Assembly (NCBI GenBank): GCA_905234855.1
Contig: CAJOIU010000005.1
Location: 1 to 64,000, forward strand
Direction of reading: 5' to 3'
Origin: an uncultured Oscillospiraceae bacterium
Lineage (GTDB): Bacteria; Bacillota; Clostridia; Oscillospirales; Oscillospiraceae
Length of the DNA: 64,000 bases
In this document: piece by piece, positions 1-61,515 of the stretch
How the letters are laid out: every line of letters starts with the position of its first letter
Numbering within the stretch: the stretch's first letter is position 1
The notes under the pieces: generated by a model
The model's database searches: none
What the model saw: the letters and a program-made list of their open reading frames with translations, nothing else
Told to the model about the DNA's origin: nothing
Position numbers and translations under genes: made by a program

Positions 1-92
1 CCGCCGTACTGACTGATGATGAATTTTGCCAGCGCGGGATTCGGATTTTTGATGCGGATCGGGTATTGCAGCTTCTTTTCATATACAAACAT
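1..92 (-). CDS. cotJC: Spore coat protein CotJC, N-terminal part (runs off window)
   Basis: Reverse-strand translation MFVYEKKLQYPIRIKNPNPALAKFIISQYGG resembles the CotJC (manganese catalase-like) N-terminus; start overlaps the upstream stop (TGATG). Confidence 0.85.
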   Translation of the reverse strand, partial: MFVYEKKLQYPIRIKNPNPALAKFIISQYG

Positions 93-538
93 CAGCCCTT
101 ACCTCCCTTGGTGCGGCGCTCCCACGGCCATGCGTCCTCCGGCCAGACCCACGAATCGAACATCGCTGTGTCGCGGCGCGTCACGGGGCCGCACATCTCC
201 ACATAGCGTCTGCGGCCTTCCTCGGCCAGCTCCACGAAGCATTTCCATGTTTTGAAGGCCTCCCCATCGTTTGGATGGGTGTTCAGATACAGCGCCAGCT
301 CATGCGCCACGAAATCCAGCGCCATCAGCTCGGTCAGCGGTGTTTTCTCCACGCGCCCGGAGGCGACATAGTCCATAAACGGTAGATCGAGGCCGGGAAA
401 CAGCGTGCCCTTTTCCAATGCCTCCGCCGGTTCATAGGCATGCTCCGCGCTCTCCTGCATGGGCACCATGGCCAGCGCCAGCGGCGCGCAGGATGGGAGG
501 CTGCCCTCTTTATAAGTGCATGATTCATTCTGTGCCAA
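92..538 (-). CDS. CotJA-CotJB fusion spore coat protein, probable TTG start at 538
   Basis: APLALAMVPMQ...YEPAEALEKGTLFPGLDLPF is CotJA-like; ELMALDFVAHELALYLNTHPNDGEA...WPWE is CotJB-like. One continuous frame. The ORF-track start at 640 lies inside pheT; TTG at 538-536 has GGGGG 8 nt upstream. Confidence 0.8.
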   Translation of the reverse strand: MAQNESCTYKEGSLPSCAPLALAMVPMQESAEHAYEPAEALEKGTLFPGLDLPFMDYVASGRVEKTPLTELMALDFVAHELALYLNTHPNDGEAFKTWKCFVELAEEGRRRYVEMCGPVTRRDTAMFDSWVWPEDAWPWERRTKGGKG

Positions 539-542
539 AAAG

Positions 543-582
543 ATATCCCCCTTTGCACGCCATACTATGCAAAGGGGGATAT
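543..582 (-). terminator. Terminator-like hairpin after pheT (15-bp perfect stem, then CTTTTT)
   Basis: 543-557 ATATCCCCCTTTGCA pairs with 568-582 TGCAAAGGGGGATAT; loop 10 nt. Confidence 0.85.
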
Positions 583-6321: not shown

Positions 6322-7452
6322 ATGGACGACAGAAAAAAACGGACTTGGGCGGAGATCGACCTTGGGGCGATCGCGCATAATTACCGGGTGATGCGCGCCG
6401 CGCTGCCGGATGGCTGCCGGTTCCTCGGCGTCGTGAAGGCCGACGCCTACGGACATGGGGCGGTGCCGGTGTCGAAGCTGCTGGAGCGGCTTGGCTGCGA
6501 ATATCTCGCGGTGGCCTGCCTCGATGAGGCGCGGCAGCTCCGTGAGGCCGGGATCGGCCTGCCGATCCTGATCCTCGGCTATACGCCGCCCGAATACGCG
6601 CCGGAGCTTTGCGCGCTTTCGGTCACACAGGCGGTCGGCAGCCTCGAGGCCGCCGCGGCGCTGAACGACGCGCTGGAGGGGTCAGATCATACGCTCAAGG
6701 TGCACCTGAAGCTGGAAACGGGTATGGGACGCACGGGCTTCCGCGCCTTCGGCGCATGGAAGGCGCTGCCTGCCGCGACGGCGGTTCGGATGCCCCATCT
6801 GGATGCCGAGGGTGTTTTTACCCATTTCTGCGTGTCCGATGCGGACGAGCAGACGCGGGGATTTACCCATGTCCAGCTGGAACGGTTCCAAGACGCTATC
6901 AAGGCCATAGAGCTGCGTTCCGGGCATACGTTTTCCATCCGACATTGCACCAATTCCGGCGCGATGCTTTCCTTCCCGGAAACCTATATGGATATGGTGC
7001 GTCCCGGCGTATCGCTGTACGGCATGTATCCGGGGCCGGATCGGGCGCGGTTCGATCTCATCCCGGCGATGACGCTCAAAACGCGGGTGGCGTATGTCGA
7101 ACGGCACGAGCCGGGGGATACCGTCAGCTATGGGCGGACGTTCACCGCGGAGCGGCCGAGCGAGATCGCCGTTCTACCCATCGGCTATGCCGACGGACTG
7201 CATCGGACGCTTTCCAATAAGCTCACTGTTTGCATAAACGGCCGTCATGTCCCGCAGGTGGGACGCATCTGCATGGATATGTGCATGGCGGACGTGACCG
7301 GGCTCGGCGTGAAGCCCGGGGACGAGGCGGAGATCTTCGGCCGTGAGATGCCCATCGACGACGTGGCGGAGAAGGCCGGAACGATCCATTACGAGCTGAC
7401 CTGCGCCGTAAGTCCCCGCGTTCCGAGGATCTATGTGGGAGAGACGGTATAA
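6322..7452 (+). CDS. alr: Alanine racemase
   Basis: 376 aa; RTWAEIDLGAIAHNYR..VVKADAYGHG PLP motif, GRICMDMCM. Confidence 0.97.
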   Translation: MDDRKKRTWAEIDLGAIAHNYRVMRAALPDGCRFLGVVKADAYGHGAVPVSKLLERLGCEYLAVACLDEARQLREAGIGLPILILGYTPPEYAPELCALSVTQAVGSLEAAAALNDALEGSDHTLKVHLKLETGMGRTGFRAFGAWKALPAATAVRMPHLDAEGVFTHFCVSDADEQTRGFTHVQLERFQDAIKAIELRSGHTFSIRHCTNSGAMLSFPETYMDMVRPGVSLYGMYPGPDRARFDLIPAMTLKTRVAYVERHEPGDTVSYGRTFTAERPSEIAVLPIGYADGLHRTLSNKLTVCINGRHVPQVGRICMDMCMADVTGLGVKPGDEAEIFGREMPIDDVAEKAGTIHYELTCAVSPRVPRIYVGETV

Positions 7453-7536
7453 TTTTTACGCTTTCGTGGGAAAATGATAGCGTGTCCGTACATAGAATGT
7501 ACCGGGCGACTATTTCACGGAAGTGGTGCTCACAAT

Positions 7537-7899
7537 ATGACAAATCCGGTTCGACGCGGTGACATTTATTATGCGGATCTCAGTCCTGTGGTAGGCTCAG
7601 AGCAGGGCGGGCTGCGGCCGGTGCTCATCGTGCAGAACGATACGGGCAACCGCCACAGCCCCACGGTGATCGCCGCGGCGATCACCTCGCAGCTTGGCAA
7701 AGCCCGTCTGCCGACGCATATCGAGATCCAAGCCCCGGACAGCGGCCTGAGCCGCGACAGCGTGATCCTGCTCGAGCAGATCCGAACGCTGGATAAATCC
7801 CGCCTGCGCGAGCGCATGGGAAAGCTGGACGGGACAACGATGAACCGCGTAGACAACGCCATTGCCGTCAGTTTCGGGCTGGGGCAGTCCATGTCCTAA
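7537..7899 (+). CDS. MazF/EndoA (PemK-family) endoribonuclease toxin
   Basis: [35 protein letters not shown]...RTLDKSRL; 120 aa from ATG 7537. Confidence 0.95.
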
Positions 7900-7905
7900 A
7901 GACCG

Positions 7906-7943
7906 ACCTCCATTCATAGACTTCTGTGAATGGAGGTTGTTTT
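7906..7943 (+). terminator. Terminator-like hairpin whose 3' arm contains the next gene's SD
   Basis: ACCTCCATTCA (7906-7916) pairs with TGAATGGAGGT (7927-7937), followed by TGTTTT, then ATG at 7944. Confidence 0.75.
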
Positions 7944-8282
7944 ATGCGGATTCCTGTGTATATCGACGGCAAGGAGGAAGGCTTTCTCATCATCGAACGA
8001 AAGGGCGCCTTTACGGTGGCGAGCGCGAAGCTCCGGGATGTGGGGCGCGTCGTGCGTCTGCGGGTCTACGGCGACGGGGAGGCGTATCTCGGCGTTCCCA
8101 CGCCCTGCGGCGACGGCTTGTGTCTGGTGCGCCGGTTCAGTCCCCGGGAAATGCTTCGGTTTCCCGCCCATCCGACCTATGCGGCGGAGCAGAAACGAGA
8201 GCCTGAAGCCGCCCCGGAGGCTTCGGAGGATCGGGAGGGCAGGCATGTCCTGTGGCTCGGAGGGCGGGCGCATTATTTCTGA
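7944..8282 (+). CDS. Small hypothetical protein (112 aa)
   Basis: MRIPVYIDGKEEGFLIIERKGAFTVASAKLRDVGRVVRLRVYG...; GGAGG 7 nt upstream of ATG. Confidence 0.7.
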   Translation: MRIPVYIDGKEEGFLIIERKGAFTVASAKLRDVGRVVRLRVYGDGEAYLGVPTPCGDGLCLVRRFSPREMLRFPAHPTYAAEQKREPEAAPEASEDREGRHVLWLGGRAHYF

Positions 8283-45067: not shown

Positions 45068-45260
45068 GCAAACGAGGTTATAAAGTAACCAACTTATAAA
45101 ACTGAGCTTTTAACTCAATCAATAAGGCAACAGAAGCTGCCTCCGCACACTGGCGGGTATTCGGCATTCGACCCGGCTGTCCGTCTGGCCTTGGCCGCTC
45201 CGAGAAGCGGCGGTCGTATCTTGCTTTGGAAAGACTCTTTCGATATTTCCAATTGAGACG
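45068..45260 (-). ncRNA. Candidate structured noncoding RNA (unassigned)
   Basis: Own promoter TTGACA-N17-TAGAAT on the reverse strand; run of local hairpins TTGGAAA/TTTCCAA, GCCGCT/AGCGGC, CGGGT/ACCCG, AGGCA/TGCCT. Confidence 0.45.
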
Positions 45261-56228: not shown

Positions 56229-56258
56229 TCCGTGCTTGTTCCGTGACCGCATATCGGC

Positions 56259-56308
56259 TCCCCTCCGGGAATAGACTGTAGCAGTCGATTCTCTGGAGGG
56301 GATTCTTT
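56259..56308 (+). terminator. Two-tier hairpin with the next gene's SD on its 3' arm
   Basis: TCCCCTCC (56259-56266) pairs with GGAGGGGA (56295-56302); inner stem GAATAGACTG/CAGTCGATTC; then TTCTTT and ATG at 56309. Confidence 0.75.
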
Positions 56309-56716
56309 ATGCCGAATATGAGTAAATGGAGCCTGCCGTTCTCCGGCGCGGTGGGTATTGGCGCGTCTGTATTGACGACGCTGACGTTTTGTCTGCCGCT
56401 GTCGGCGGTGCTGTCACAAGGATGGCTTCCGATGACGCTGCTGGAGGGTATGTCTGAAGCTGCTGCCGCCGCGGCAATCCTGCTGACGGTATGGGTGATC
56501 GGACGGCGGCGCGGCCGGCAGGCGCTGCCGCTGGCCGGGATCGTTGCGGGGGGCTTTATTCTGCTGGCTGCGCTGCTGTGCGCTCTGAGCGGCACGTCCG
56601 CGGCGTTTGGCGGGTGGCTGATCCGGCTCGCGGCAGCCGCGGTTTTGGGCGGATCGGCGGGCGCGATTATGTCGATTCGGCAAAAAACCCATGGGAAACG
56701 CCGAAATCGCCGCTGA
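56309..56716 (+). CDS. TIGR04086-like four-TM membrane protein
   Basis: 135 aa, four hydrophobic segments, position after yajC. Confidence 0.65.
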   Translation: MPNMSKWSLPFSGAVGIGASVLTTLTFCLPLSAVLSQGWLPMTLLEGMSEAAAAAAILLTVWVIGRRRGRQALPLAGIVAGGFILLAALLCALSGTSAAFGGWLIRLAAAAVLGGSAGAIMSIRQKTHGKRRNRR

Positions 56717-60743: not shown

Positions 60744-61207
60744 GGATCGGACACGGATATGACGCGCATCGGCTGACGGAGGGGCGAAAGCTCATACTCG
60801 GCGGGGTGGAGATCCCCTATGAAAAAGGTCTTGAGGGACACTCAGACGCCGATGTTCTGCTGCACGCGCTGGCAGACGCCCTGCTTGGCGCGGCGGCGCT
60901 GGGGGATATCGGGCAGCTCTTCCCGGATAACGACCCGGCAACGGAGGGGATCGACAGCCGCGTGATCCTGCGACGGGCGGCGATGCTCGTGAGTGAGGCG
61001 GGGTATGCCGTGGAAAACTGCGATGTGACGATGATCGCCCAGCGGCCGAAGCTTGCGCCGCATATCCCTCAAATGCGGCGGAACATCGCAGAGGATCTGG
61101 GGATCGCATTGGACGCCGTCAGCGTAAAGGCTACAACAGAGGAGCATATGGGCTTCACCGGCTCGGGAGAAGGCATGCGATGCCATGCCGTCGTCCTGCT
61201 TCGGTAA
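60740..61207 (+). CDS. ispF: 2-C-methyl-D-erythritol 2,4-cyclodiphosphate synthase
   Basis: [63 protein letters not shown]. Confidence 0.98.
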
Positions 61208-61216
61208 CAGAATCGG

Positions 61217-61262
61217 ATTCCTCCCGCATAAAATGGTGCGTAACCATTCGGGGAGGAATTTT
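61217..61262 (+). terminator. Two-tier hairpin with the next gene's SD on its 3' arm
   Basis: ATTCCTCCC (61217-61225) pairs with GGGAGGAAT (61251-61259); inner ATGGT/ACCAT; TTTTC then ATG at 61264. Confidence 0.75.
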
Positions 61263-61263
61263 C

Positions 61264-61515
61264 ATGCAGTTTCTTTTTATATGCCGGAGTCTGACCTATG
61301 CGCAGCGCGCCGCGAGGCTTTTGGAACGGGCGGGCATCACGGGAACGGTCGCCCGCGTGCCGAAGAATGTTGAGACCCGCGGCTGCGCCTATTGCGTTAT
61401 CGTCATGCCCAGAAACAAGGAACGGGCGCTGGAGGTGCTTCGGTCGGCGGGTCGGATGCCGGAGCGGATCTTTCTGCGGGAGACGGGCGGACAGGTGCGG
61501 GAGGTGGCGATGTGA
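61264..61515 (+). CDS. DUF3343 (putative Se/S carrier-like) protein
   Basis: MQFLFICRSLTYAQRAARLLERAGITGTVARVPKNVETRGCAYCVIV. Confidence 0.88.
   Translation: MQFLFICRSLTYAQRAARLLERAGITGTVARVPKNVETRGCAYCVIVMPRNKERALEVLRSAGRMPERIFLRETGGQVREVAM

Follow-up and report, generated by a model that had tools for sequence, protein, structure and literature searches.

How a gene needed only during sporulation is kept silent when it lies directly behind a housekeeping gene transcribed in the same direction is a question raised by the junction of yajC with a TIGR04086-type gene. This junction is one of four of the same kind in the 64-kb stretch of DNA analyzed here (the window). A first-pass annotation of the window had described a common layout for them, in which a terminator-like hairpin carries the Shine-Dalgarno sequence (SD) of the next gene in its 3' arm, and had proposed that readthrough RNA would both terminate and hide the ribosome-binding site, whereas RNA started inside the hairpin would have a free SD.

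Hairpins at four junctions of the window

The four junctions were read directly from the sequence and folded, and all four hairpins proved real, at the sites and with the layout first described (Table 1). The SD of the next gene lies inside the 3' arm in every case (4/4), followed by a T-rich spacer and then the start codon. As in intrinsic terminators, a GC-rich stem of at least 8 bp leads directly into a U-rich tract, both in the sequence and in the folds; unlike in ordinary intrinsic terminators, one and the same sequence serves both as 3' arm and U-tract and as the SD and spacer of the next gene, and a putative promoter lies inside. The TIGR04086 hairpin has the lowest local energy and is thus the strongest of the four, as had been claimed, and it and the ispF hairpin are both two-tier. 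The gene names given earlier also hold: pheT (TIGR00472) is followed by CotJA/CotJB, MazF/PemK by a 112-aa protein, YajC by TIGR04086, and IspF by PF11823 (Se_S_carrier), which we take to be the former DUF3343. An ortholog of the TIGR04086-type gene from the family scores 24.6 bits, higher than the window gene, and the 112-aa protein had no Pfam or NCBIfam match. A scan of the window with Rfam returned no riboswitch or leader family at any junction; its matches were four tRNAs and one SpF59_sRNA (ldcC RNA; 66 bits, 45161-45216, minus strand).

Table 1. Features of the four hairpin junctions of the window (energies are local hairpin energies from folding).
Feature	Coordinates	Strand	Details
-35 box GCATATC of TIGR04086 junction promoter	56249..56255	+	14-bp spacer to -10; position and spacing shared by orthologous junctions
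Two-tier hairpin, yajC/TIGR04086	56259..56302	+	5' arm 56259-56272; 3' arm 56288-56302; inner stem GACTG/CAGTC; -30.0 kcal/mol
-10 box AATAGACT in 5' arm/loop, TIGR04086 junction	56270..56277	+	genus-wide form [A/C]ATA(G/A)(G/A)CT
SD GGAGG of TIGR04086 gene, within 3' arm	56295..56299	+	predicted P(unpaired) 0.00 on readthrough RNA vs 0.38 on RNA begun 7 nt past -10
U-rich tail/spacer TTCTTT ahead of TIGR04086 ATG	56303..56308	+	read from sequence
TIGR04086-type membrane protein gene, 135 aa	56309..56716	+	downstream of yajC; TIGR04086 at 16.4 bits, below curated cut-off
cotJ junction, 15-16 bp hairpin ATATCCCCCTTTGCA/TGCAAAGGGGGATAT	543..582	-	-35 TAACAAC 591-585; -10 CATAGTAT 569-562; -26.9 kcal/mol
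cotJ junction SD GGGGG	551-547	-	TTG start at 538; sequence and fold
Fused CotJA-CotJB spore-coat protein gene	92..538	-	PF11007 + PF12652
mazF junction, 16-bp hairpin	7904..7939	+	-35 TCCTAAA 7894-7900; -10 CATAGACT 7915-7922; SD GGAGG 7932-7936; -26.0 kcal/mol
112-aa protein gene behind mazF	7944..8282	+	predicted sporulation gene, on the basis of its promoter
ispF junction, two-tier hairpin	61216..61260	+	-35 TAACAGA 61205-61211; -10 CATAAAAT 61227-61234; SD GGAGG 61252-61256; -21.3 kcal/mol
DUF3343/Se_S_carrier-like gene	61264..61515	+	PF11823, 50.2 bits

Enrichment of SD-trapping stems

The source genome comprises 1.79 Mb on 44 contigs, of which 40 stretches amounting to 0.86 Mb, including the window, were taken as a sample; genes were called, and 596 starts were tested for SD-containing stems of 11 bp or more, starts with at least four T in the spacer being classed as T-rich and 100 shuffles serving as the control. 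Such stems were found at 10 of the 68 T-rich starts, compared with a shuffle mean of 0.66 (maximum 3), an enrichment of ~15-fold, and at five of the 528 starts with fewer than four T, compared with 2.55 in the shuffles, which is no clear excess. Because the enrichment is confined to T-rich spacers, the excess belongs to hairpins that also resemble terminators. A CCTCC...GGAGG...ATG pattern searched across the whole genome gave 70 matches, as opposed to 26 for the reversed control. The sample holds 11 hairpin sites, which extrapolates to ~23 in the genome. A looser scan for a stem with the SD and a T-run at any position was dropped after returning many ordinary intergenic terminators.

Genes flanking the hairpins

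For the most part, the hairpins precede sporulation genes, a point absent from the first-pass annotation. Those in the sample include the CotJA-CotJB fusion, SleB, YpeB, YabP, a D-Ala-D-Ala carboxypeptidase presumably of the DacF/DacB type, the TIGR04086-type protein (a weak match) and the DUF3343/Se_S_carrier protein. Four small proteins encoded behind hairpins (7944-8282 in the window, L044:952, L055:13561 and L068:14899) have no clear family, so that a sporulation role is only predicted for them; lying behind the same element, they are candidate new sporulation proteins. The upstream neighbor is co-directional for all 10 hairpin genes that have a called neighbor, and the neighbors that could be identified are housekeeping genes, namely pheT, ispF, yajC, thrS, gltX, rsgA, an S4 protein gene and mazF.

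Putative sporulation-type promoters embedded in the hairpins

Every hairpin holds a box of the type CATAnnnT (or AATAGACT, CGTAGACT or GATATGCT) in its 5' arm or loop, and a -35 box of the ATA or AC type precedes the 5' arm, mostly 14 bp upstream of the -10. For Clostridioides difficile, sigma E and sigma K promoters are described with very similar -10 boxes and with -35 elements of ATA (sigma E) or AC (sigma K) (PMC3789822). CATAnnnT boxes were seen in the cotJ, DUF3343 and yabP junctions, whereas those of sleB and TIGR04086 look to be of the sigma F/G type. To judge from these motifs, the hairpin contains a sporulation-type promoter, which had gone unremarked in the earlier annotation, and motif and gene identity together suggest which sigma factors would recognize it. 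When orthologs from five junction families were used to build a promoter matrix, the six other hairpin genes of the genome ranked 5, 6, 11, 12, 46 and 84 of 729 (Mann-Whitney p = 3.6e-5); rank 11, from a matrix independent of it, belongs to the promoter of the mazF junction, ahead of the gene at 7944. A regular expression for sigma E boxes, applied to all gene starts, showed weak enrichment and was dropped.

These putatively stage-specific boxes lie inside or just before the hairpin and are conserved in the genus, and the RNA predicted to start from them lacks the 5' arm. When promoter-started RNA was modeled from a predicted start 7 nt past the -10 box, the predicted probability that the SD is unpaired was 0.07-0.71, compared with 0.00-0.02 for the 11 sites on readthrough RNA; accessibility on promoter-started RNA was modest in several cases, among them ypeB (0.13), sleB (0.23) and dacF (0.23). 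At L044:952 and L068:14899, the -10 ends 5 nt ahead of the SD and the predicted start falls within it, suggesting either that the true start is nearer or that these leaders are odd.

Conservation and coevolution of the arms

Up to 35 congeneric genomes supplied orthologous junctions for cotJ, TIGR04086, sleB, yabP and DUF3343. These junctions are best conserved in their promoter boxes, which hardly vary; the flanking DNA has diverged. A stem of at least 8 bp is present in 113 of 113 congeneric junctions in which a co-directional gene ends no more than 100 nt away. Across 27 congeneric TIGR04086 junctions, pairing is kept with double changes at five of 10 alignment pairs, and in every species the native arms pair better with each other than exchanged arms do (27/27; -23.6 vs. 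-17.8 kcal/mol, p = 2.8e-6). The other four families follow the same trend (p from 0.002 to 0.046), the coevolution being weak for cotJ (p = 0.046), whose arms hardly vary. The cotJ junction is conserved in most of 30 congeneric junctions, and the ispF/DUF3343 junction is kept in 28-29 of 30, with a -10 that is mostly CATACAAT. One congeneric DUF3343 junction (L240) has ~65 nt of extra sequence in the loop between the -10 and the 3' arm and retains both arms.

Dependence on the upstream neighbor

The 5' arm has been lost in eight junctions of the genus, each of which has other protection, the upstream terminators and the classification having been read by eye from the sequence. At cotJ, the loss occurs with a divergent gene upstream (L137), with a divergent ORF of at least 457 aa upstream (L121), and with an ordinary terminator upstream of the promoter (L119 and L122); at yabP, it occurs with an ordinary terminator upstream of the promoter (L209, L212 and L213) and with a strong upstream hairpin lacking a U-run (L207). 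The U-run has decayed in the same junctions, to 2-3 T at cotJ vs. mostly 5-6 elsewhere, and to 1-3 T at yabP vs. 4-7. Loss of the 5' arm and U-run was confined to junctions with a divergent neighbor or with another hairpin, usually a terminator, upstream. Loss and context are associated with Fisher p = 4e-7 when kinship is ignored, but the losses are clustered in related species and amount to ~4-6 separate events.

Outside the genus, the sleB genes of other Clostridia carry a hairpin in 11 of 18 co-directional contexts as opposed to 2 of 30 divergent ones (p = 7.5e-5), counting stems of 9 bp or more and co-directional genes no farther than 130 nt away, with neighbors called by codon models for each GC class; a first version of this test, with neighbors taken as the longest ORFs, was discarded as excessively noisy in GC-rich DNA. 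In the source genome, a promoter scan run blind to the hairpins identified spoIIIAA, an Amidase_6 gene and an SSB-like gene, which have the same promoter type, divergent neighbors and no hairpin; two further genes are likewise without a strong hairpin, one with a SipL domain that directly follows a hairpin-guarded gene, and one for a lipoprotein-like protein that follows an ordinary terminator. Judged by these genomic contexts, the hairpin depends on a co-directional neighbor, a dependence that goes beyond the reading first proposed.

Occurrence in the family and at sigG

Across 151 genomes of the family, the core pattern is many times more common than its reversed control. The matches include sigG (twice), spoVAC and TIGR04086, and some precede non-sporulation genes such as folC. 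The presence of sigG was not retained as a means of dividing the genomes into sporulating and non-sporulating for the pattern counts, as the gene is split in several of them and then scores below the cut-off.

In Bacillus subtilis, a hairpin of 20 or more base pairs ahead of sigG (spoIIIG) has been proposed to block translation of readthrough RNA from spoIIGA-sigE, and it cannot form in RNA from the sigG promoter itself (PMC5942855). Among 30 sigG junctions from the family, the SD is covered by a stem of 8 bp or more in 18, and in most the SD lies under a hairpin and the spacer is not a U run. As read from sequence, these hairpins extend the B. subtilis case to the family. In many family genomes (junctions L336-L365), the 5' arm of the SD-covering hairpin contains the sigG promoter (GTATGAA ... 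GCAATACTG), and the hairpin mostly lacks a U-run.

The sigG gene is broken near codon 93 in the source genome and in about nine other family genomes (loci L366, 4713-5201, G000:C9, minus strand, and L367-L371). A large serine recombinase gene lies immediately ahead of the 3' half of sigG in L366, L368 and L369, and in L368 the two halves (464-754 and 7157-7645) are separated by ~6.4 kb on one contig, and the direct repeat GTGCCGATGAT occurs at both ends. The interruption is alike in kind to the skin element of sigK but is located in sigG, and a limited literature search found no published description of an interrupted sigG.

The leaders of IS10/IS50-type transposase genes hide the ribosome-binding site in RNA that enters from outside. 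Three Clostridia genomes (G244, G199 and G291) contain repeated identical copies of the hairpin layout, their loops carrying a TAGAAT or TATAAT box; these copies are probably transposase leaders shielded from readthrough in this manner.

A probable insulator against readthrough, and its alternatives

Insulation of sporulation genes from readthrough, by a terminator joined to an SD trap, is very probably the best explanation of these junctions. The enrichment over shuffled controls, the retention and coevolution of the arms in relatives, and the predicted full pairing of the SD on readthrough RNA, all of which the first-pass annotation had suggested as checks, lend support to its insulator reading. 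The composite element would span ~50 bp. A sporulation-type promoter (sigma E/K or sigma F/G-like) would drive the downstream gene, with its -10 in the 5' arm or loop of the RNA hairpin and its -35 just ahead of the hairpin. The SD (GGAGG) and U-rich spacer would form a ready right half of an intrinsic terminator, on the side of the 3' arm, and the terminator would be completed, with the boxes untouched, by a C-rich stretch that forms the 5' arm within the -35/-10 spacer, which is otherwise free of constraint. Readthrough RNA from the constitutive gene (pheT, thrS, gltX, rsgA, yajC, ispF or mazF) would fold the whole hairpin, most polymerases would halt at the U-run, and any RNA extending beyond it would have a paired SD, so that the sporulation gene would be silent during growth. 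Transcripts of the sporulation promoter would start past the 5' arm, form no hairpin and leave the SD free. The cell might benefit, as SleB, coat or germination proteins made early could be wasteful or harmful.

The hairpins might instead serve the upstream genes as ordinary terminators and overlap the next SD just to save space, the hiding of the SD being an unselected by-product. This is unlikely, if far from negligible: stems are enriched only with a U-rich spacer, the 5' arm is absent where another terminator sits upstream, and an SD with a U-rich spacer is a ready-made half terminator. However, the terminator sits on the SD, and not ahead of the promoter, in 113 of 113 tight junctions, although placement ahead of the promoter would also work and does so in L119, L122, L209, L212 and L213. 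Most sigG hairpins of the family, moreover, cover the SD without a U run, which favors SD hiding at that gene.

Attenuation that tunes how much downstream protein is made relative to the upstream one within an operon, or translational coupling, in either case with no internal promoter, would fit adjacent co-directional genes and an upstream stop codon that is sometimes near the hairpin. Such a role is improbable, as the distance from stop codon to hairpin varies (~5 to 30 nt even within the window), conservation is highest in the promoter boxes, housekeeping genes precede largely sporulation-specific ones, and spoIIIAA, with the same promoter type and a divergent neighbor, has no hairpin. More doubtful still is the idea that the inverted repeats, which do overlap a promoter, act at the DNA level as operators bound by a repressor, and not as RNA structures; it was rejected because arm sequences differ from gene to gene (CCCCCTTTG, CCTCCC, CCCTCG and others) with pairing retained, and it is further opposed by the constant position of the SD in the 3' arm with the T-run next and by the link with neighbor orientation. 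Chance hairpins from GC-rich DNA around G-rich SDs would agree with general SD pairing over the 596 starts, which is about as frequent as in dinucleotide shuffles, but are already refuted by the ~15-fold enrichment of the T-rich class and the coevolution of arms in orthologs.

Relation to known systems and significance

The logic of an insulator that hides the SD from readthrough is already known from phage T4 gene e and B. subtilis sigG. Long early transcripts of gene e (lysozyme) hide the SD, the 5' strand of the structure contains late promoters, and synthesis is cut ~100-fold; soc, 49 and I-TevI are further T4 cases (PMC3014915). The likeness is that readthrough RNA traps the SD and that transcripts from a later-stage promoter lack the structure and are translated; the T4 genes differ in being phage genes, and their description includes neither an intrinsic terminator fused to the SD nor a dependence on neighbor orientation (PMC3014915). 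The same kind of structure as in B. subtilis precedes sigG in many genomes of this family, but the B. subtilis case concerns one gene behind another sporulation operon, whereas here many sporulation genes lie behind housekeeping genes and a U-run is added. The IS10/IS50 leaders differ in belonging to mobile elements rather than developmental genes, similar repeated leaders occurring in Clostridia. No published description of repeated use for sporulation genes behind housekeeping genes, or of the fusion with a terminator, was found in a search that did not extend to most subscription journals; as far as could be found, systematic use and fusion with an intrinsic terminator are what is new here.

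It is rather probable that spore-forming Clostridia share this insulator design (promoter, terminator and SD trap within ~50 bp), used at some 20 junctions or more in each genome of this genus, with its presence set by the orientation and closeness of the neighbor. The single case of sigG would then be generalized, and the losses of the arm where it is not needed would be natural experiments. In these compact genomes, genes for spore-lytic, coat and germination proteins lie right behind genes for tRNA synthetases and other constantly transcribed genes. If the reading is correct, the element, being recognizable from sequence, would serve as a signature for finding sporulation genes not yet known, such as the 112-aa gene at 7944-8282, and would point to the housekeeping operons that would otherwise leak into them. 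Silencing such genes during growth is a general problem of bacterial development, to which the insulator would be a simple and testable answer.
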